A DNA stretch of 49,559 nt from a virus, in IMG/VR virus record IMGVR_UViG_3300047379_000481, positions 1-49,559 of that record. One strand, written 5' to 3'. The position numbers were made by a program, and so were the translations under genes. Of this stretch, positions 21,250 through 49,559 are shown piece after piece. Each line of letters begins with the position of its first letter. Position 1 is the first letter of the stretch. Below the pieces are notes generated by a model. The model worked only from the letters and a program-made list of their open reading frames with translations. It was not told the origin of the DNA and made no database searches.

Positions 21250-21519
21250 TCAGTAAATCTCTCCATTGATAATACCTTCACGGTTCTTTAGTTTCCATAC
21301 TATGTAATCCATTGTTGGGATACACATAGGGTTCCAACCAACAAAGGTTGTTGACTCTCTACTTGGTATCTTCCAACAGGGAGCATCATCATTTTCAAGG
21401 TCTAATGATTTACGATACTCTTCCTCACCAAACATAACAACAGCACGTTCTGCTTCATTCAAACTCTTGAAGCAATCAAAAGAATTCTTTCTAATGATAT
21501 CAGGGATGTGGTGTTTCAT
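21250..21519 (-). CDS. Hypothetical protein (89 aa; 94 aa from an earlier ATG)
   Basis: The start at 21519 (MKHHIPDIIRKNSFDCFKSL) overlaps the endonuclease stop by ATGA; an earlier ATG would lie 15 bases inside that gene. The C-terminal half contains FVGWNPMCIPTMDYIVWKLK. No family is recognised. Its stop is followed directly by the direct repeat and a late promoter for the next gene. It could be resident phage DNA or a passenger of the endonuclease cassette. Confidence 0.6.
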   Translation of the reverse strand: MKHHIPDIIRKNSFDCFKSLNEAERAVVMFGEEEYRKSLDLENDDAPCWKIPSRESTTFVGWNPMCIPTMDYIVWKLKNREGIINGEIY

Positions 21520-22457
21520 TTTACTATTGTCCATCCACGAAGAATATCTATTCTACCTCTCAACAAATTATTAAAACTGGTTGTTGGTAATCCATGTTCT
21601 CTAGCAAATGGTTTAGCACCTTTACCTTTATAAATTTTTCCTTCTGGACTTTTTACACAAAATTCTCTAAATCCTTTTGCATTTTTATATCTAGTCGCGA
21701 CTAACTTTTCACGAACTCCTGGTGCAAACGCTCCTGTTCCATTCTTATGATGCTCACTCTGCTGCTGTCTATAAACCTTTCTTCTTTCTTCACCTCCTTC
21801 ACCTTCAAATAATGCTTTTGTATTAGCACTTCTCTGTTCCTTTGTTAACCCACATATTCCAAGACCAAATTCTTTATTTTTTGCTCCTCCTTTTTTCCCC
21901 ATATCAGAACGAAGAGAATATCTCTCCTCCTCCGTCATAGACTTCCAATATTTTACACAACCACTCTCAATAGCTTTAGCACTATCAGCACTATGTTGTT
22001 CTGGAGTTCTGCCAAGAGAACCTCCATTATACTCTGGATTATCTTTCAACCACTCACCAGCCAATCTTGATTGAATCGCCAAAGCTTGATTTTTTTTTCT
22101 CTCTTCATAAGTAAGTCCACCAAGACCAATACCCATTTGCCACTGAAGTCGTGAAGATTCTGCGTTCTTTCTTCTTGCTTCTGGTGAAGGATTTGAATGA
22201 CCCTCACCACCATCAGACATATTACGAAGAATTCCAGTTCCTAAATCTTTTCTACCGAGAACAGCAATCATATACTTTTCGTGATTGAATGCTTCTTCTT
22301 CTGTAAGATTTTGTTTTAGAAAAATAATTCTATCTTTATCATCAGGAACTTTTACATTATGCTTGGAGTCATATGCTCTCTTCCCCTGACCCTTTCCAAT
22401 ATAATATGGTGTTCTATCACCTTTACGAAGATATGCGTAAGTATAAAAATAACTCAT
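21516..22457 (-). CDS. GIY-YIG homing endonuclease
   Basis: This 313-residue protein starts with a GIY-YIG nuclease core: YFYTYAYLRKGDRTPYYIGK, with an R in KGQGKRAYDSKH and the catalytic E in FNHEKYMIAVLG (about residue 59). The middle is rich in short basic repeats (EERKKNQALAIQ, EERYSLRSDMGKKGG, KEQRSANTKALF), typical of modular DNA-binding NUMOD-like segments. A C-terminal helix-turn-helix-like segment (GAKPFAREHGLPTTSFNNLL) follows. It stands free between two complete genes, with no intron, as with the Seg endonucleases of T4. Flanking direct repeats suggest mobility. Confidence 0.88.
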   Translation of the reverse strand: MSYFYTYAYLRKGDRTPYYIGKGQGKRAYDSKHNVKVPDDKDRIIFLKQNLTEEEAFNHEKYMIAVLGRKDLGTGILRNMSDGGEGHSNPSPEARRKNAESSRLQWQMGIGLGGLTYEERKKNQALAIQSRLAGEWLKDNPEYNGGSLGRTPEQHSADSAKAIESGCVKYWKSMTEEERYSLRSDMGKKGGAKNKEFGLGICGLTKEQRSANTKALFEGEGGEERRKVYRQQQSEHHKNGTGAFAPGVREKLVATRYKNAKGFREFCVKSPEGKIYKGKGAKPFAREHGLPTTSFNNLLRGRIDILRGWTIVK

Positions 22458-26707: not shown

Positions 26708-28087
26708 TTATTTAGTCTCTACATCAGAGGGTTCATCTGGCATGCCATAAGAATCCCTTACTAAAGTAAGATATGTATTTGCTTTTGCATTCAGAACATC
26801 AGCGGAGTGCTGTAGTTTTGCAATCAAATAAGCACCGCTATGTTCCTTGTCATAAATGTCATTCTCTTCTCTTTCTGATGAAGGAATGTTATTAGGAATC
26901 ATAATCTCAACTGTCTGTCCCGCACGTAAATCTGTTCGGAAAGGTATCTGAATAAAGACTTGCTGGTTGTTCTGTGATTGTTTTCTAGCAATCGACTGCG
27001 CTACGACATATTTCTGCCAGTCAGGAAATTCTGCTGTGTTCTTCTTACCACCATCTGGTTTCTCTGGTGATGCTACTTCCACACCATCAAACCAAGTCTC
27101 ATGATCCATCAACACAGACATAATTCTACTGGGATTGACTGCAAGATCAGCCTGACCTTTAGCAAGACCAGACTGGGATCCTAGATGCTCCATGTCATCA
27201 AAGCGATCACCTAAATTATAAACATACTCTTCGTAAGTACCAGTGCTATAGTTATAGAAACAAATAACATTAGAGAACGTACCCATTCTCAACTTGGATA
27301 AGATGTCAATCTCTTGTTGGAAGTCAATGTCAAGGATTTTACGGCGAGCATTCTGTGGATTGAGTTGATCATTCTCTTGAAAGAATGTCTCCACAGGTGG
27401 ATTAGTTTCGATAGAGTTTAGTGAGTCAATTGATCTAAAATGATATCCATCATAGTTTTCGTAGAAGTAATACCCTGCACTACCCTTTGATATTTGTAAT
27501 TCTGATGTTGTACTAGAACCTGAAGGAAATGTCTTCTTATCTTCAGGTACAGTTCTCTCTTTCAACGAGCTGATAATAGAGAAAGGTGTCTTCTTACCTG
27601 GCAAGAAAGTTACCTTAAACATAGAAGGATCATTGAGAAGTCTCTTTGTAGTTCCTAACTTTTCTGTTACTAGTTGAGATACAATGCCTTCTGCTTTACC
27701 TGATAGTCTTTCTCCTAATCTAGTAGTTTCATTGACCAACAGTTCATTGGAAACCAACCCAAGAGAATACTCTTGATACCTGTCTGCAGAAAAGCGATTG
27801 TATATCTTTGACACCTTCATGTTCAGTGTCAATAGTTCTTCATCAGCAGCACCAAATACCAGTTCAACATTCTCGTATCCAGAAATAGGAAGAGAAGAAA
27901 TAATATTTGCTGCGTTGTCAACGATGTCTAGGTTGACAGAAATACTTGGCATGTCAATGTCTTCAAAGTATTGAAAACTTTTGATCAACCCTGTTAGTGG
28001 CACTTCAGTTCCATCTAGACCAGTAATAGTTGCCTCTTCTAGTTTTAAACTAGAGGCATATGGAAACTCTTGGTTATTATCACTCAT
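26708..28087 (-). CDS. gp27-like baseplate hub / tail structural protein
   Basis: This 459-residue protein opens with a beta-rich domain (TGLIKSFQYFEDIDMPSISV, NLDIVDNAANIISSLP) typical of tail-hub proteins of the gp27/gpD fold. It ends with a second beta domain (IQIPFRTDLRAGQTVEIMIP and a GAYLIAKLQHS strand). It lies directly upstream of the gp5-like gene, which is its partner in the T4 hub, and overlaps the previous gene by ATGA. The gp27 name rests on context and fold-like patterns rather than strong similarity. A GATAAATA motif 122 bp upstream may give extra late expression. Confidence 0.6.
   Translation of the reverse strand: MSDNNQEFPYASSLKLEEATITGLDGTEVPLTGLIKSFQYFEDIDMPSISVNLDIVDNAANIISSLPISGYENVELVFGAADEELLTLNMKVSKIYNRFSADRYQEYSLGLVSNELLVNETTRLGERLSGKAEGIVSQLVTEKLGTTKRLLNDPSMFKVTFLPGKKTPFSIISSLKERTVPEDKKTFPSGSSTTSELQISKGSAGYYFYENYDGYHFRSIDSLNSIETNPPVETFFQENDQLNPQNARRKILDIDFQQEIDILSKLRMGTFSNVICFYNYSTGTYEEYVYNLGDRFDDMEHLGSQSGLAKGQADLAVNPSRIMSVLMDHETWFDGVEVASPEKPDGGKKNTAEFPDWQKYVVAQSIARKQSQNNQQVFIQIPFRTDLRAGQTVEIMIPNNIPSSEREENDIYDKEHSGAYLIAKLQHSADVLNAKANTYLTLVRDSYGMPDEPSDVETK
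26709..26715 (-). promoter_or_regulatory. Late promoter motif (CTAAATA) for the gp5-like gene
   Basis: The minus strand reads GACTAAATAAAAATAAAAG 18 bp before the hub gene start. The stop codon of the upstream gene lies within the same bases, so stop and promoter overlap. Confidence 0.6.
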
Positions 28088-30657
28088 GTGGTCACACCAT
28101 CAACTGTAAATACTGATTTGGATAGAGAAGAAACAGAAGGAGCTACTGTAGTTCCCTGTGATGTAGGAACCGCACCAGTAGCAGCAGATTGTGTTTGCTC
28201 ACCGCCCATATTTATCATTGCTACTTGTGCTTTTTCTGCTGCTGTAGAACCTCGCATCGCCTGTGTTGGATCTACTTTAGTTGCTGGTGGTTTAGTTGCT
28301 GGTGGTTTAACTCTCTCCTGACCATACTCTATGAATGACTTAAGTATAGCAGCATTTTTACCACCAGTGGTATCTATCTTCATACTACCACGATATAAGT
28401 CAAACCCGCCACCACCTAGTTTGAATGCATTGTATTGTTTACCATCATGCTCGAAATATATTCTTTCCCCTGTTCTTGCACCAAAGGTTTCTGTAATTCC
28501 TTGTGAAGATTTTGATTGTGCTTCTAGATCTGAAGTATCTCCTGTTGTTTTTGGTTCTGGTTTTGGTTCTACTAACGGTCCTGGTTTTGATCCTGGTTTT
28601 GCATAAGCAATACTATATCCCTCGCCAGTACCAAGATAATTTTTAGCTGCGACACTCAAGTCAAGCATATGATTACTTGAGTGTCCTTCTACTCCAGGTC
28701 CAACATCATTAACCCTAACAACAGCAGACTTTCCTGTCTTGGTATTAGTTACAACTACATTAAAAGGTTTCTTGAGAGTTCTACCGCCAGGAAATCTCGC
28801 TGCAGGAACTGTCATATTTTTGGGAAGAGTGGCTAGCAATGGTGGAAATGCTGCCGCAGAAAAAACATCTTCCTTATATCCTTCACCAGTAGATGTAGCA
28901 GGCAATCCTTCAGCAGTCTTATGTCCGCTGGCGTTAATACCACCAAGTGATGGATCATAGTAAGTTGTCTTGGCACCAGTGCTAATCATCTCACCAGCTT
29001 CTCCTGATCCTGTAGTAGAAGGATTATGTGTGTCTTTTGGTGGTGCAGGATCGTTATCTGGATTGAACAGGTTTTTTAGACCATCAAATACTTTCTGGAA
29101 TACATTTTTCTTTTCTTTTTTCTCTTCATCACCACCAGTCAAGATAGAAGGTTCTTTCTTCAAACTTTCACCAGCCTTTGCTTTACCTACCAGTGATTTA
29201 GGTAGGTCAAATACACTGGCAAGTGGAGTGATAACTTTTGCCATCTCACTAGCAACCTCGGGACTGTCTCCAGATAGTCGTTTGACTAACTCACTACTAG
29301 CAGCCAACGCCATACCACCAGCAACCTTTGTTGGTAGTGCCATAGCATCTACTAATGGTTGTTCCAGACTACTATCTGCCATCAGGTTAGGTATCTCAAT
29401 GGGAGATGATTTACCCATAGGAGTTCCCTCTTCATAACTGTTATTGACATTAGAAAATGATTTACCCATCTCATAACTGTTATTGACATTAACATTCATA
29501 GGAGGAACCATAGGTTCTGATGGTGTTGGTCTTACCTTACCATCAACCGCACTTGGTTCTCCTTGCGTGTAGTTGTTGTCTAATGGTACGATTGCCTCAT
29601 CACCATGTAGTGTCAAACCAGGTACTTTATATCCACTATCAGGTCCAGATAAGATAGCACCTCGCTCTGCTTGTGGACCTTCTTTGACATCATCCGATGG
29701 CGATTCATTATCTGATTCTGGATCATAATCTAGTTTTATATTAGATGCTGCATCCTTTAGATCGAATGTATCATCAGTGGTGTCCACTGGGATATTAGTG
29801 GTGACAACTTTGGCTTGTTTTTCTAGATTGGATTCTTTGACCGTTCCTTCTGCATCATCAGTTTGTTTTTTCTTCAATGCAGTCTGTGCATTGATTGCTT
29901 CAGCAATCTTGGTTAACTTGTCCTCAATACTATCTGTTCTTTCACTCAACTGATTAACAATATCAGTCTTCATTGCATGAACATCAGAAGCAACCTGTTT
30001 AGAGTCACCGATGCTGTTGTTAATAGACTGTGCTGTCTTGTCTAATGACTGGGCAATAGCATTGATTGCCTGGAGAAGGTCTTCTCTAGTTGCTCTCTGC
30101 TTGTTACCAGATGCTGCTGCCGCTACTTTCTTTTCAGTTTCAGCAAGCATCCTCTCTTGAGAAAGAGACTGTCTCTTCTGCTCAAGTTCAAAGGGAGACA
30201 TCTTTTTAGGGATTGCAGGTGTCTCTGCTTTTACACCTTCAGGTGGTCTCTTTGCACTCTGAAAATTATAGTTATCAAATTGCCTACGGAATCTCTCAAC
30301 GTCAGACAGTTTCTTTATGTCTTTACCGTCAGCGTCTCTATTGTCTACGAAGTTCCAGAACTGTGCCTTTGGATTCTTTAGCAGTTTGACACGATCAACT
30401 GCCTGTTCAATGTCTTGCTTCTTGCCACTGATATATGATCCACCAAACTTATTCTTTAGTGCTGCCTTAAAAAAGAAACCTTTCTCTACACCTGCTTCTT
30501 CTAGGCTATCATATCCTGCTTTCTTTGCCTTCTCTTCTGCTGCTTCTCTCTCTTGTCTAGCAAATTTTCTTGCAGCAAGAACCTTCGAGATCATACTACC
30601 AATATGATCCTTACCTGGTTTTGTTGTATCTGTAAACCCTTCGGTAAATGCTGCCAT
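28084..30657 (-). CDS. Large tail/hub protein with double-psi beta-barrel (RlpA-like) domain
   Basis: The 857-residue protein starts MAAFTEGFTDTTKPGKD. It is highly charged and helical for ~330 residues (QEREAAEEKAKKAGYDSLEE), has a linker with LHGDEAIVPLDNNYT, and a segment FDLPKSLVGKAK shared with the next upstream gene. Residues ~560-690 match a double-psi beta barrel: TTYYDPSLGGINASGHKT, then VVRVNDVGPGVEGHSSNHM and LDLSVAAKNYLG. DPBB domains of RlpA and phage cell-wall hydrolases cut glycan. Position after the tail chaperone suggests a tape-measure or hub role with peptidoglycan activity. A late motif lies 20 bp upstream. Confidence 0.65.
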   Translation of the reverse strand: MAAFTEGFTDTTKPGKDHIGSMISKVLAARKFARQEREAAEEKAKKAGYDSLEEAGVEKGFFFKAALKNKFGGSYISGKKQDIEQAVDRVKLLKNPKAQFWNFVDNRDADGKDIKKLSDVERFRRQFDNYNFQSAKRPPEGVKAETPAIPKKMSPFELEQKRQSLSQERMLAETEKKVAAAASGNKQRATREDLLQAINAIAQSLDKTAQSINNSIGDSKQVASDVHAMKTDIVNQLSERTDSIEDKLTKIAEAINAQTALKKKQTDDAEGTVKESNLEKQAKVVTTNIPVDTTDDTFDLKDAASNIKLDYDPESDNESPSDDVKEGPQAERGAILSGPDSGYKVPGLTLHGDEAIVPLDNNYTQGEPSAVDGKVRPTPSEPMVPPMNVNVNNSYEMGKSFSNVNNSYEEGTPMGKSSPIEIPNLMADSSLEQPLVDAMALPTKVAGGMALAASSELVKRLSGDSPEVASEMAKVITPLASVFDLPKSLVGKAKAGESLKKEPSILTGGDEEKKEKKNVFQKVFDGLKNLFNPDNDPAPPKDTHNPSTTGSGEAGEMISTGAKTTYYDPSLGGINASGHKTAEGLPATSTGEGYKEDVFSAAAFPPLLATLPKNMTVPAARFPGGRTLKKPFNVVVTNTKTGKSAVVRVNDVGPGVEGHSSNHMLDLSVAAKNYLGTGEGYSIAYAKPGSKPGPLVEPKPEPKTTGDTSDLEAQSKSSQGITETFGARTGERIYFEHDGKQYNAFKLGGGGFDLYRGSMKIDTTGGKNAAILKSFIEYGQERVKPPATKPPATKVDPTQAMRGSTAAEKAQVAMINMGGEQTQSAATGAVPTSQGTTVAPSVSSLSKSVFTVDGVTT

Positions 30658-30676
30658 TTATTAGATTCCCCCTAGA

Positions 30677-30683
30677 TATTTAG
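30677..30683 (-). promoter_or_regulatory. Late promoter motif (CTAAATA)
   Basis: The minus strand reads TTAACTAAATATCTAG 20 bp before the 857-aa gene. The TAA of CTAAATA is also the stop codon of the 994-aa gene. Confidence 0.6.
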
Positions 30684-33664
30684 TTAAAGAGAGCGATGTG
30701 CATTGCTGCTTTTCCTGGCGCAACACCCATCGGAGGTCTAGTTATAGATTTATTATCACGAGGTACATCTACAGTTGGTTCTGGTGGTGCTTGCGGTGGA
30801 GTCATGACAATGATAGTCTGTGCCATTGATTCTGCCTCTTCATCATACTCTAACACTTCAGGTACAAAGGTACGATAAGTTTGAATTAATTCAGATGGTG
30901 TACTAGACGCATTCATTGCCAGCAGGTGATCAAGAACTGGTGGTGTACCATACACCAAGTTTTTCATAACAATCTCTGGTCCTTCTTCACCAACAGTAAT
31001 CTGTTCTTGACCTGACATACCAGCAACACCACCTTCGGCATATGCAGGACCACCTTTATCAAATAAATCAAAATCTCTATTGCCGCCCTCTTTCTTCATA
31101 GCAGAGAAGTGCATCGCATCTTTAACACTTCTCCATGCACCACCCCATCCTAGTCCATGCTTTGCAGCAATTTCACCGATGTTGGATGGCATATCAGTAA
31201 CTAAATTATTGCCAGTAGGATCATATGGATTTTCGTTTGCGTTTATATCAATTGATGCTCCATATGGATGAGAATATCTATTTTGATCATAATCAGGATC
31301 ATCAGGACCAGCGCCACCACCAGTGCCTGCATTTCTGAACCCACCAATAGTTCTAATTTTATATCCAGTCTCTTCTAATTCAGCAACGAATCCTTTAAAT
31401 TGATTAGCAACAACACTAGCTACCTTGTATGTATGACCATCTTTTGTAGTCAAATTAGTTAGTTTAATACCAGTGTTCCATGGTCTATCATTAATTGAAC
31501 CTGTTGATTCTAATTTAGAATCTACTGCTGGAGAAGGTGGAACTGGTTTTCCATCAGGACCCATTGGTCTGATACCAAAAAATCTAGCTAGATTTGAAAA
31601 GAAATTACCACTACCTTCATCTGCTTCTTCTAAATCCTTCTTTTCCTTTTCATTTAACTGCACCGTTTCTTCTCTAAATAAAGGATTTTCTTCTTCCGTT
31701 TTTCTAGAAATCTTATTAAGACTATTAGCAACACCGTCAATTGATCCACCAACATTTGTTGATGCAAGTGATTTAGGAACATCAAATGCGGTTGCTATTT
31801 TTGATGCCTCTTGCTGGAAGCTAGGTGCTACTGTCGCTGCTAGTGGTCCAACATCAGACAATACTTTACTACTAGCAGCCAAGATTGTACCACCAATAGG
31901 ACGCATTAGATCTTTGTAGAATCCAGGTTCAATTAAAGCCTCTGTACCATGTAATTCTGGAACACCAGTTCCACTACCGCCCTGCTCAAACTTACCAAAG
32001 AATGTACCGCCTGGAGTGATCTTTTCTATAAAACTAGGGGTGTACTGTTTAATTTGTGGGGTGAGGGGTTCGATTTCACGAGCAGCAATTTGTCTTGTGT
32101 ATTCTGCTTTTGCTTCAAGTTCCTCTGGAGTAGATCTTTGTTCTCCATACATGACTGCCTCTTGTTCTTCTGGAGTTAGATCTCCCCCAGTTTCAAGTTT
32201 CATTGTTGCATATTTTTTCTCTTTATCTTTTTCAAGATGAGACATCCTTGCTTCTGCAAGAGGAATCAATCCTAATTCAGCAGCAAGGAAAGCCCACCCA
32301 ACAGGACCAGGGATAGCACCACCACTAGCAAGAAGACCACCCACAATATCTCCTTTGGCAAATCTTTCTATAGCAAATCCAACACCAAGTGCAGTACCAA
32401 CGCCTGGTATAAATCTAGAAGCTCCTTTAGCAGCTGCTCTAGTTGCTGCTTTTTTACCAACTGCTCCCGCCACTGCTTGTGTAGTTTTCTTTCCAGCACC
32501 ACCACGTAAAAACTGTGTTCCTCTCTCAATTCCAGCAGAGATTGTTCTACCACCAGGAATCTTACGCAATTTATTACCAAGACCCATCCTACCCTTTCTT
32601 GCCAGTGCTCTTGCAGTCTTAAGAGGGTTCCTCATTCTTCGGAGCATCTTACCAATGCCACCAGTACGAAGAAATCTTAAAAAACGTAGAAATTTAAGAA
32701 AATTAGGTCCACCACCACCTTTTTTATTCTCCTTCTCTATTTCATCAGTAGTATCTTCATATCCAAAAGTATCTGCTACATCTTCCTTGTTTTCCAGGTT
32801 AGCTTCAGCTGCAGCAGTCTCCGCATCATCTATCGCCTCTTCTTCAGTCTCATTTTGCGATTGCATCGCATTTAAGATATCATCAAACCTATCGTTCAAT
32901 GAATCATATGTCGTTTCAATCTGATTGAGATTACTAACTGTAGTACCAACAGCAGCACCAAACAATTCATTCTGTTTCTTCAATTCATTATCAATTGAAG
33001 ACAACTGCCCCTGAATCTTCTCTAAAGATGAAGTCAGAGTCTTAAGTATCTTTACATTAGATATTGCTTCTACTTTCTGCTTCTTTTCTTTTGGTGTCTT
33101 CTCGTAATTCTGACCAGTCTGCTGATTAACAGCGTCAAGCATACCTGGTGGCAATAAGTCTATAATATCTGATAGATCTGGTGCAGTTTCTTCAACAACA
33201 GGTTTGTCTACTACTACTTCATCTACTGCCTTAACTGCTTCATCAATGTTTTCTTTTACTTCTTCTTCTGCTTTCTCTACAATCTCTTCTGCTTCTTCTT
33301 CTGCTACCTCTTCTTTCTTTTCTTCAGCAACAGTTGTGTCAGTAAATCCTTCTGTAAAAGATGTTTTTAGATACCTTTCTACAATCCATTCTTGATATCT
33401 TCTCTCATCCCGACCACTGGTACTACCAGTCTCAAACATAGGATATCCATCGATATCCGTCTTCATGTTCTTGATAATTATATCAGCATCTTGCGTGGAG
33501 ATTTTCTTCTCCAACATAGAAAAGTAACTGGTGCCACTATCATCCGTGCCGCCAGTTAACTTTGCTTTTAATCTATTAAAGATGCGATCCTTCTGTCCAC
33601 CACCAGGCACACCTTTCCTATACCATCTTACGATATCTTCTGGTGCTGGGGTGTTGAAAATCAT
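30680..33664 (-). CDS. Large tail/hub protein with M15 (D,D-carboxypeptidase-like) domain, tape-measure candidate
   Basis: The 994-residue protein has an N-terminal 60-residue Lys/Arg-rich domain, a FTEGFTDTT segment, a long Glu/Lys coiled coil (KEEVAEEEAEEIVEKAEEEV), and a basic Gly/Arg stretch. A hydrophobic region (GDIVGGLLASGGAIPGPVGW) follows, then a segment shared with the 857-aa protein (LHGTEALIEPG, AFDVPKSLAS). Residues ~745-860 match peptidase M15: Y-S-H-P-Y-G-A-S-I-D-I-N at ~798 and W-R-S-V-K-D-A-M-H-F near 850, supplying the zinc H/D/H set. Many tail tape measures carry such peptidoglycan peptidases. It starts TAATG after the frameshift ORF, the normal tape-measure place. Confidence 0.7.
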   Translation of the reverse strand: MIFNTPAPEDIVRWYRKGVPGGGQKDRIFNRLKAKLTGGTDDSGTSYFSMLEKKISTQDADIIIKNMKTDIDGYPMFETGSTSGRDERRYQEWIVERYLKTSFTEGFTDTTVAEEKKEEVAEEEAEEIVEKAEEEVKENIDEAVKAVDEVVVDKPVVEETAPDLSDIIDLLPPGMLDAVNQQTGQNYEKTPKEKKQKVEAISNVKILKTLTSSLEKIQGQLSSIDNELKKQNELFGAAVGTTVSNLNQIETTYDSLNDRFDDILNAMQSQNETEEEAIDDAETAAAEANLENKEDVADTFGYEDTTDEIEKENKKGGGGPNFLKFLRFLRFLRTGGIGKMLRRMRNPLKTARALARKGRMGLGNKLRKIPGGRTISAGIERGTQFLRGGAGKKTTQAVAGAVGKKAATRAAAKGASRFIPGVGTALGVGFAIERFAKGDIVGGLLASGGAIPGPVGWAFLAAELGLIPLAEARMSHLEKDKEKKYATMKLETGGDLTPEEQEAVMYGEQRSTPEELEAKAEYTRQIAAREIEPLTPQIKQYTPSFIEKITPGGTFFGKFEQGGSGTGVPELHGTEALIEPGFYKDLMRPIGGTILAASSKVLSDVGPLAATVAPSFQQEASKIATAFDVPKSLASTNVGGSIDGVANSLNKISRKTEEENPLFREETVQLNEKEKKDLEEADEGSGNFFSNLARFFGIRPMGPDGKPVPPSPAVDSKLESTGSINDRPWNTGIKLTNLTTKDGHTYKVASVVANQFKGFVAELEETGYKIRTIGGFRNAGTGGGAGPDDPDYDQNRYSHPYGASIDINANENPYDPTGNNLVTDMPSNIGEIAAKHGLGWGGAWRSVKDAMHFSAMKKEGGNRDFDLFDKGGPAYAEGGVAGMSGQEQITVGEEGPEIVMKNLVYGTPPVLDHLLAMNASSTPSELIQTYRTFVPEVLEYDEEAESMAQTIIVMTPPQAPPEPTVDVPRDNKSITRPPMGVAPGKAAMHIALFN

Positions 33665-33852
33665 TAGGCGGATCTAGATGCTTCCTGTTTCTTTTTCTCT
33701 TGTTCGATGTGCTGAATCAAGAGGGACGTGTATACTTCACGTTCCCAAGGCATCATGTTTTCAATCTCTGTCAAGCTGTATTTATGGTACTGCATTAAGG
33801 CAAAGTTAGTTTTATAGTACCCTTCCAAATTGTTTTGGAAGAGTGCTATGCG
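33664..33852 (-). CDS. Tail assembly chaperone extension, likely made by -1 frameshift from gp26 (gp51 position)
   Basis: This frame is open for 62 codons, starting exactly where a -1 slip on the gp26 heptamer would place the ribosome (R-I-A-L-F-Q-N-N). It ends SRSA-stop sharing one base with the next ATG. The sequence has YSLTEIENMMPWEREVYTSL and a charged EQEKKKQEASR tail, the pattern of the T-domain of tail assembly chaperones. No ATG with a Shine-Dalgarno opens it; the first ATG is 19 codons in and a weak TTG is 8 codons in. Fusion to gp26 would give 298 residues. In T4 this position is gene 51. Independent initiation at TTG 33828 or ATG 33795 remains possible. Confidence 0.65.
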   Translation of the reverse strand, partial: RIALFQNNLEGYYKTNFALMQYHKYSLTEIENMMPWEREVYTSLLIQHIEQEKKKQEASRSA

Positions 33853-33858
33853 AAAAAA
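33822..33858 (-). promoter_or_regulatory. Programmed -1 ribosomal frameshift signal
   Basis: On the minus strand the gp26 frame reads AGT TTT TTC GCA TAG. T-TTT-TTC (33852-33858) is a canonical X-XXY-YYZ heptamer. After a 10-nt spacer, CTTCCAAA pairs perfectly with TTTGGAAG around ACAA (33822-33841). Confidence 0.7.
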
Positions 33859-34559
33859 CTTTGCAATCCCTCAATAGTATACTCACACTCATTACCTGTG
33901 TTTGGGTTGACTACCGTAAACGTATGAGAAAGTCTAGGCATAGTCTCATAAAATTTTTGGATTGATTCAAATTGTTTGGTAGTCAATGACTCCACAAACT
34001 CACGAAACTCTTTCTTACTAGTAGTAGAAGAATCGTATACCTCTTCTTCATCAAAGATCTGTTCGATATGTTCTGCAATGAAGCTAAAGATATGATCAGC
34101 ATCAATACCTTTGTTCAAGAATTGAGACTCAATAAATCTATCCATACTAGGATACTTCATCAGGATACCAGTGGTATCAGTCAACATAATCTTTCTATCA
34201 TGCCCCTCTTCTTTGGTAACTTCTACCTCATCAATATTGATAGAAGCAGTGGCATTGGTCTCACCATCATCCGTACAGGTTACCGTCATTTCAATGACTT
34301 CACCGATAGCAGCGGCACGAATCTTAAGGAACAAATATTCTAGATCAAATGATGGTAGTTGATCTACCTTAATTCTAGAAATAACACAAGACTTCAATAC
34401 ATTTTTAACAGCATCAATAACTTGCTTTTCGTCTTGCGATTCCATTGCCAATAGCAAAACCTTTTCTTCTTTTACCAGAAATGGTCTATACTTTACCGTT
34501 TTTCCAGTAGAAGGCAGCGACAGTTCATACTGCGGTACGCCAAGTTTTGGTAATGCCAT
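33846..34559 (-). CDS. gp26-like baseplate hub / tail chaperone protein
   Basis: This 237-residue protein resembles T4 gp26: LPSTGKTVKYRPFLVKEEKV, then RAAAIGEVIEMTVTCTDDGE in the middle, and a helical C-terminus (FREFVESLTTKQFESIQKFY ... TIEGLQSFFA). Similar 'T4 baseplate' family proteins in other phages act as the short form of the tail assembly chaperone, located between tail tube and tape measure. That is the arrangement here, with a tail-tube-like gene upstream and tape-measure-like genes downstream. The last codons contain the slippery heptamer. A CTAAATA/AATAAATA late motif lies ~27 bp upstream. Confidence 0.8.
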   Translation of the reverse strand: MALPKLGVPQYELSLPSTGKTVKYRPFLVKEEKVLLLAMESQDEKQVIDAVKNVLKSCVISRIKVDQLPSFDLEYLFLKIRAAAIGEVIEMTVTCTDDGETNATASINIDEVEVTKEEGHDRKIMLTDTTGILMKYPSMDRFIESQFLNKGIDADHIFSFIAEHIEQIFDEEEVYDSSTTSKKEFREFVESLTTKQFESIQKFYETMPRLSHTFTVVNPNTGNECEYTIEGLQSFFA

Positions 34560-47363: not shown

Positions 47364-48419
47364 TTAAAGGGCATTACCACGAGGTAATACTTCCTCTGGA
47401 AAAATGAACTGCTCATGTGGTTGATCAACTGGTGCCAACCATGCACGTAGTCCTTCATTCAATAGGATGTTCTTTGTATAGAACGTCTCGAATTCTGGAT
47501 CTTCTGCTGCTCTGATCTCTTGACTCACAAAATCATAAGCACGAAGATTAAGAGCAAGCCCAATGATGCCAATAGAAGATGTCCAAAGACCCATGACAGG
47601 AACAAACAACATAAAGAAGTGCAACCAACGCTTATTGCTAAACGCAATCCCGAAGATCTGCGACCAGAAGCGGTTCGCCGTAACCATAGAGTAAGTTTCC
47701 TCTTCTTGAGTGGAATCAAATGCCTTGAATGTGTTTGCTTGGTCTCCATCTTCATACAATGTATTCTCTACGGTGACACCATGGATTGCTGACAGCAATG
47801 CTCCCCCCAAGATACCTGCAACTCCCATCATATGGAAGGGGTTGAGCGTCCAATTATGAAAGCCCTGGAGGAAGAGAAGGAACCTGAAAATCGCCGCGAC
47901 ACCGAAACTCGGCGCAAAGAACCAAGATGACTGTCCCAAAGGATAGATGAGGAATACAGACACGAATACAGCAATAGGACCAGAAAAAGCAATCGCATTG
48001 TAGGGTCTGATACCAATCAGGCGAGCAAGTTCAAACTGTCGAAGCATGAAACCAATGAGAGCAAAGGCTCCGTGGAGTGCCACAAAATTCCAGAGTCCCC
48101 CAAGTTGGATCCAACGGACGAAACTGCCTTGAGCTTCAGGACCCCAAAGTAGAAGAAGAGAATGACCCATAGCATCAGCAGGCGTTGAGACAGCCGCTGT
48201 AAGGAAATTAGCACCCTCAAGGTACGAACTTGCAAGTCCGTGGGTGTACCAACTCGTAGCAAATGTTGTGCCCGTAAGCCAGCCACCAATTGCAAGATAA
48301 GCAGTGGGAAGAAGAAGTAGTCCAGACCAACCCACAAAGACAAAGCGATCCCGTTTAAGCCAGTCATCAAGGATATCAAACCATCCCCTCCGTTGTTGTT
48401 GTAGTGTTGAAGCAACCAT
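47364..48419 (-). CDS. psbD: Photosystem II D2 protein
   Basis: The 351-residue protein is a full-length D2: it has the N-terminal [20 protein letters not shown], the iron/chlorophyll helices ([20 protein letters not shown], then [20 protein letters not shown]) and a C-terminal [11 protein letters not shown]2 pairs with D1 in the photosystem II reaction centre, binding pheophytin, P680 chlorophyll and QA. Phage copies keep photosynthetic energy flowing during infection. AAGGA precedes the ATG by 7 nt. It is co-oriented with petF and psbA. Confidence 0.97.
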
Positions 48420-48430
48420 TGTTTGTTCCT

Positions 48431-48652
48431 TTAATTATGCTCGGTAAAATGTTTGTCAAGAACTTCGATACGCTCTTCTTCATGAGCAATAATATCTACT
48501 TGTTCTTGGATGGCAGCGAGTACGTCAGGGTGCTCACCAATACCTACAGGATTGTGTAGGTAAACTTCAATGTTTGTTTTTGCTTTTGAAATGTTTCCTT
48601 CTGCTTGAGCACGAAGTGATTCCAAAATTTGTAGACGAAGATTACAAGACAT
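48431..48652 (-). CDS. Small helical protein between psbD and petF (73 aa)
   Basis: The sequence [20 protein letters not shown] continues [20 protein letters not shown] and [20 protein letters not shown]. It is predicted mostly helical with a conserved-looking H-P-x-G-I-G-E-H turn. It begins on the last base of petF and is followed 11 bp later by psbD. No family is recognised, but its place inside the photosystem gene group suggests co-expression with D2. Confidence 0.75.
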
Positions 48653-48945
48653 TAGTATAGAGACTCCTCTTGTTCAGTAAGAATAGTTAGATCTGATGTA
48701 GGATATGCTACACAAGTGAGAACAAATCCTGCTTCTAGTTGATCATCATCCAAGAACGATTGATCACCTTGATCTACAGTACCAGATTCAATCTTACCAG
48801 CACATGTAGAACAGGCACCAGCACGACAGGAGTAAGGCAAGTCAATACCAGCTTCGTCAGTAGCGTCTAGAATGTATTGATCATCTTCGCAGGTGATTGT
48901 GTGTTCACCCTCCGAAGTTTTAAGAGTGACGTTGAATGTTGCCAT
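48652..48945 (-). CDS. petF: Plant-type [2Fe-2S] ferredoxin
   Basis: From the ATG at 48945 ([20 protein letters not shown]) the 97-residue protein has the cluster ligands C40, C45, C48 and C78 in [14 protein letters not shown] and VLTCVAYP, as in photosynthetic ferredoxins. An ATG 42 bases upstream would run back into the terminator. Ferredoxin takes electrons from photosystem I to reductases; phage copies may redirect them to nucleotide or bilin synthesis. It shares one base with the next small gene. Confidence 0.93.
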
Positions 48946-48967
48946 AGTAAATTTTGAGATTAAAAAA

Positions 48968-48985
48968 GAGGGTCCGAAGACCCTC
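48968..48985 (-). terminator. Terminator after psbA (UUCG hairpin)
   Basis: GAGGGTC pairs with GACCCTC around TTCG on the minus strand, followed by six Ts. TATAAT (48988-48993) and GATAAATA (49000-49007) lie just upstream, so promoter-like and terminator elements are stacked. Confidence 0.8.
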
Positions 48986-49005
48986 ATATTATACCACGTT
49001 ATTTA

Positions 49006-49559
<554 letters not shown>

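Follow-up and report, generated by a model that had tools for sequence, protein, structure and literature searches.

A conserved slippery heptamer, a Shine-Dalgarno-like element and a covarying hairpin suggest -1 frameshifting at the gp26 locus of T4-like cyanophages

Background

The use of frameshifting by the tail-chaperone genes of other phages is well established, and the case of T4-like phages has apparently been reported already. A 2025 account (PMC12846349) cites Vladimirov et al. 2022 for -1 signals of the poly-T type in the tail-chaperone genes of T4-like phages; the PRFect description cites the same work (Virology 566:9) for T4-like phages with a short and a fused gene. The hub assembly chaperones of T4 include gp26 and gp51, of which gp51 is required for assembly and is not found in the final particle (PMC3004832). 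Among bacterial systems, Shine-Dalgarno (SD) stimulators of -1 frameshifting are located 9-14 nt upstream, and the functional stem of dnaX comprises 11 bp (Atkins et al., PMC5009743). A literature search on frameshifting in cyanophages found no paper on the gp26 locus, and the SD-like element and the covarying hairpin presented here may constitute new details.

The locus has practical importance for annotation. In hundreds of marine T4-like genomes the long chaperone is split, mis-started or unannotated, its C-terminal part being recorded as 'gp51, baseplate hub assembly catalyst'. Recognition of the frameshift corrects the gene model and explains why a start of the small ORF is so frequently missing. 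The window analyzed here is the complete 49,559-base virus record IMGVR_UViG_3300047379_000481; all features of the locus lie on its minus strand.

Results and discussion

The 3' end of gp26 and its -1 frame

The gp26 gene (33846..34559, minus strand) encodes, in the zero frame, the 237-aa short form (TAC-N), with matches to PF12322 (E 4e-70) and to phrog_150, 'baseplate hub' (E 3e-81), and an AlphaFold2 pLDDT of 85. It is the only PF12322 copy in the record. The 3' end of the gene reads CAA AGT TTT TTC GCA TAG, in which TTT TTC are zero-frame codons in the X_XXY_YYZ register. An in-register slippery heptamer at this place, proposed previously in a sequence-only reading of the window, is thus confirmed as T_TTT_TTC (33852..33858, minus strand), and the zero-frame stop TAG (33846..33848, minus strand) follows one codon past it, a placing shared by 338 of 401 loci. 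The same reading described a -1 frame open for 62 codons and a fusion of 298 residues; both hold, as the extension (33664..33852, minus strand) runs for 62 codons up to a TAA at 33666-33664. The extension, which would supply the C-terminus of the long form (TAC-NC) and is homologous to the C-terminus of T4 gp51, matches phrog_634 (E 4e-28), with the match beginning only at position 59 of 121. Of the window's ORFs with 100 aa or more, just three carry an in-register XXXYYYZ sequence within their last 15 codons, and gp26 alone of these three also has a strong hairpin and a long extension in the -1 frame.

Very probably, gp26 is a tail or baseplate-hub assembly chaperone gene that gives rise to two proteins from one start by a -1 slip, the extension not being an independent gene. 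Most ribosomes would terminate at the TAG, yielding the 237-aa short form, while a minority would pause on T_TTT_TTC. Two elements would hold the pause: an 11-bp hairpin 7 nt downstream, and a GAGG 10 nt upstream to which 16S rRNA would pair. Both Phe-tRNAs would then move back by one base, and translation of 62 more codons would yield the 298-aa long form. By analogy with gpG/gpGT of lambda, coating of the tape measure would fall to the short form, and recruitment of tail subunits or hub parts to the extension. Slippage in cells, its efficiency and these chaperone roles are to be read as predictions.

Searching the PDB with the gp26 sequence returned nothing convincing. A fold search among solved structures likewise gave no significant match, the HK97 tail chaperone 2ob9 scoring E 1.8 (prob 0.11). 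Among predicted viral structures, the matches that carried a name were mostly T4-like baseplate-hub (gp26) proteins. As no significant structural likeness to solved tail chaperones was found, the tail-chaperone role rests on the literature.

Conservation of the site in relatives

Relatives were collected from viral contigs and named phages by means of gp26 protein patterns from which the slip site was left out. The sequence-only reading had suggested that gp26 ends of related phages be compared for the heptamer, an open -1 frame and a covarying hairpin. The heptamer is retained as TTTTTTN, in register, in 401 of the 404 related loci (303 unique), and the -1 extensions of these relatives, about 60 codons long, are kept open as well. 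The codon ahead of the heptamer specifies S, D, N, A, T, G or H, yet its third base is always T, while the A-site codon may be TTC, TTT, TTA or TTG. Elsewhere in the same genes, an in-register T6 is found only 17 times in 70,371 codon positions. The heptamer is present in cultured phages as widely separated from one another as pf16, Vibrio phage R10Z, CC2, RHph_I9 and Marzo. At the level of sequence, these comparisons, together with those of the following sections, show a conserved site, a -1 coding frame, a covarying hairpin and an SD-like bias.

The homopolymer run at the junction raises the question of whether one gene has been split by a sequencing or assembly error. The same frame break recurs across hundreds of loci that were assembled independently, as well as in cultured phages; its conservation refutes this explanation, the probability of which is negligible.

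Three loci depart from the heptamer, namely those of Vibrio phage K474 and of the Ackermannviridae phages Det7 and Kuja. In K474 (L090:3221-3230), the gp26 stop overlaps starts in TAATGATG, and the slip site may have been replaced by stop-start coupling. In the Ackermannviridae relatives of Det7 (L093:3280-3474; L426-L440), gp26 ends with GAG ATT TTC ATT TAA; the -1 frame contains a tail-chaperone-like extension that has neither a T6 heptamer nor an obvious start at its beginning. A nearly invariant GATTTTCATTTAATTTTTGAAATTGATTTA is present in these phages, which probably use some other device for recoding or re-initiation. Another variation concerns the position of the stop: in one group of loci (L201, L216, L228, L231, L373 and L392), the zero-frame stop lies eight codons past the heptamer, not one, and the hairpin is located within the frame overlap.

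Coding of the -1 frame ahead of any start

Many GenBank records describe a free-standing small gp51, which would require termination-reinitiation or independent initiation downstream of gp26. Some relatives offer an opportunity for such initiation: 111 of the 303 unique loci have a -1-frame ATG close to the gp26 stop, in 40 of these 111 there is also a candidate start accompanied by a 4-nt SD match, and gp51 is annotated as beginning at a start of this kind in S-PM2 and other records. However, 153 of the 303 loci have no -1-frame ATG, GTG or TTG before the conserved core, and 192 of the 303 have no ATG. In the window, the sole candidate start ahead of the core is a TTG located 23 nt past the heptamer; with no ATG and no SD preceding this TTG, the earlier statement that the -1 frame has no convincing start of its own is upheld.

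Among the startless loci, from just after the gp26 stop to position +22, changes at -1-frame codon positions 1:2:3 number 420:495:1919, with a crude omega of 0.09. As the stretch ahead of any start evolves as a -1-frame protein, it is explained by a frame change from gp26 and not by an independent downstream start. Under reinitiation, moreover, the invariant heptamer would be purposeless, and the GAGG, about 24 nt from the post-stop ATG as counted on the alignment, is too distant to serve that ATG. The pattern that would speak for a separate gene, relatives devoid of the heptamer but equipped with an SD-led start, was looked for and not found, since 401 of 404 loci keep the heptamer and 153 of 303 are startless. 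A free-standing gp51 is therefore improbable, and slippage within gp26 is the preferred reading.

A hairpin downstream of the heptamer

Downstream of the heptamer, a hairpin (33819..33844, minus strand) consists of an 11-bp stem with an ACAA loop, separated from the slip site by a 7-nt spacer. Its arms, ACTCTTCCAAA with TTTGGAAGGGT, pair 33844-33834 to 33829-33819, and four further outer pairs join 33849-33846 with 33817-33814. The sequence-only reading had correctly placed a hairpin 3' of the slip site, but its dimensions required revision: the 8-bp stem with a 10-nt spacer described there is the inner part of the 11-bp stem.

The window hairpin has a minimum free energy of -16.7 kcal/mol versus a shuffled mean of -4.9 (z -6.19), and none of 200 shuffles was equally stable. 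Across the representatives, the 45 nt that follow the heptamer have the lowest mean folding energy (-8.9, compared with -2.2 to -7.7 for the other windows). The covariation anticipated earlier was found in two clades, with a score reached by 0 of 500 shuffles. In the clade of the window, 95% of cells are paired and compensatory C-G to G-C exchange is seen; in the second clade, one pair alternates between U-A, A-U and G-C, and the signal is lost when the partner is slid. Some relatives fold weakly, and as other clades use different stem registers or have little structure, the hairpin is common but not universal. Counting contiguous stems of 7 bp or more failed to distinguish the site from control windows; folding energy and covariation were therefore relied upon.

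An SD-like element upstream of the heptamer

An SD-like GAGGGA (33867..33872, minus strand), absent from the sequence-only reading and added by the present analysis, is positioned such that its GAGG ends 10 nt 5' of the heptamer, within the 9-14 nt range given for stimulators in PMC5009743. A GAGG is found upstream of the site in 84 of 148 representatives, in 78 of them at exactly 10 nt, compared with 4.9% in control windows, while any 4-nt SD-like match is missing in 17 of the 148. Codon choice points in the same direction. The Glu codon at the SD-like position is GAG in 78 cases and GAA in 29, as opposed to 1030 and 2290, respectively, elsewhere in the same genes (Fisher 3e-18; this and the other P-values take no account of phylogeny).

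The fixed distance of this element bears on the possibility that slippage of RNA polymerase on the T run, rather than of the ribosome, gives the -1 frame. A T6 run does exist, and T7-T8 occurs in some relatives. In 270 of the 303 unique loci, however, a C breaks the run after six T, and transcriptional slippage in bacteria has been described for runs of nine (PMC5009743). Both the fixed-distance SD-like element and the hairpin suit a ribosome, not an RNA polymerase. Transcriptional slippage is very improbable, and ribosomal slippage remains favored. Owing to the covarying hairpin and the fixed SD-like element, the proposed signal is testable base by base.

Neighboring genes

The region 28084-33664 contains two large ORFs, of 994 and 857 aa, which are candidates for the tape measure or tail-tip enzymes. 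The 994-aa ORF (30680..33664, minus strand), a tape-measure candidate, begins with an ATG that overlaps the TAA of the extension by one base and contains an M15 peptidase domain, while the 857-aa ORF has a weak match to a DPBB lytic transglycosylase. In a blastp comparison against the long ORFs of 15 phage loci including T4, both match only other cyanophage proteins, and no link was obtained for a 459-aa ORF. A GIY-YIG-like ORF recognized by eye (21516-22457) resembles a homing endonuclease that has been inserted into the tail module. At the end of the window (47364-49557), photosystem II D2-like and partial D1-like genes, also recognized by eye, flank a ferredoxin-like ORF. Such photosynthesis genes are usual in cyanophages.

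Comparison with T4 and other known systems

The sequence-only reading had likened the locus to the gp26 and gp51 pair of T4-like phages. With a profile built from 147 fusion proteins, the match to T4 gp26 (E 3e-25) is confined to the short part, and that to T4 gp51 (E 1e-14) begins inside the short part and continues through the extension; T4's two genes therefore correspond to the two proposed products. The same split is seen in Aeromonas phage Aes012, where gp51 is a stand-alone long form across the junction, and gp26 of both T4 and Aes012 lacks the slip heptamer. Homology to the pair stands, but in T4 the two are complete genes. As gp51 of T4 and Aes012 is a stand-alone long form, the cyanophage 'gp51' is most likely only the C-terminal part of the gp26 frameshift product. 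Since the T4 protein is not retained in the finished particle, proteomics of virions would probably not detect it.

On balance, a dnaX-like three-part cassette, consisting of an SD-like element at 10 nt, T_TTT_TTN and a covarying hairpin at about 7 nt, seems somewhat more plausible than not as the ancestral arrangement by which T4-like phages other than the T4 group produce the long hub chaperone. In T4, gp26 and gp51 would then have become separate genes through a duplication that made the recoding site dispensable, and the cyanophage 'gp51' would be no gene.

The GAGG at 10 nt upstream completes an arrangement like that in E. coli dnaX, which shares with the gp26 locus an SD-like stimulator upstream, a heptamer and an 11-bp stem-loop downstream; in dnaX, however, the heptamer is A_AAA_AAG and the shift leads to a shorter product, whereas at gp26 it would lead to a longer one. 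The gpG/gpGT pair of lambda (Xu et al. 2004) is another -1 frameshift of a tail assembly chaperone, but the protein family differs from the one considered here (PF12322), as does the slippery sequence from TTTTTTC. Pseudomonas phage Adele and other Vandenendeviridae, according to the available part of the account (PMC12846349), have a conserved -1 frame and a poly-T slip motif ending TAC-N, as here; the motif is GTTTTT instead of TTTTTTC, and neither an SD-like element nor a hairpin is described in that part. In T4, the homolog of the short form is gp26 and that of the long form is gp51, two genes there versus one probably recoded gene here, which provides a natural comparison, for two-form chaperones, between recoding and two separate genes.
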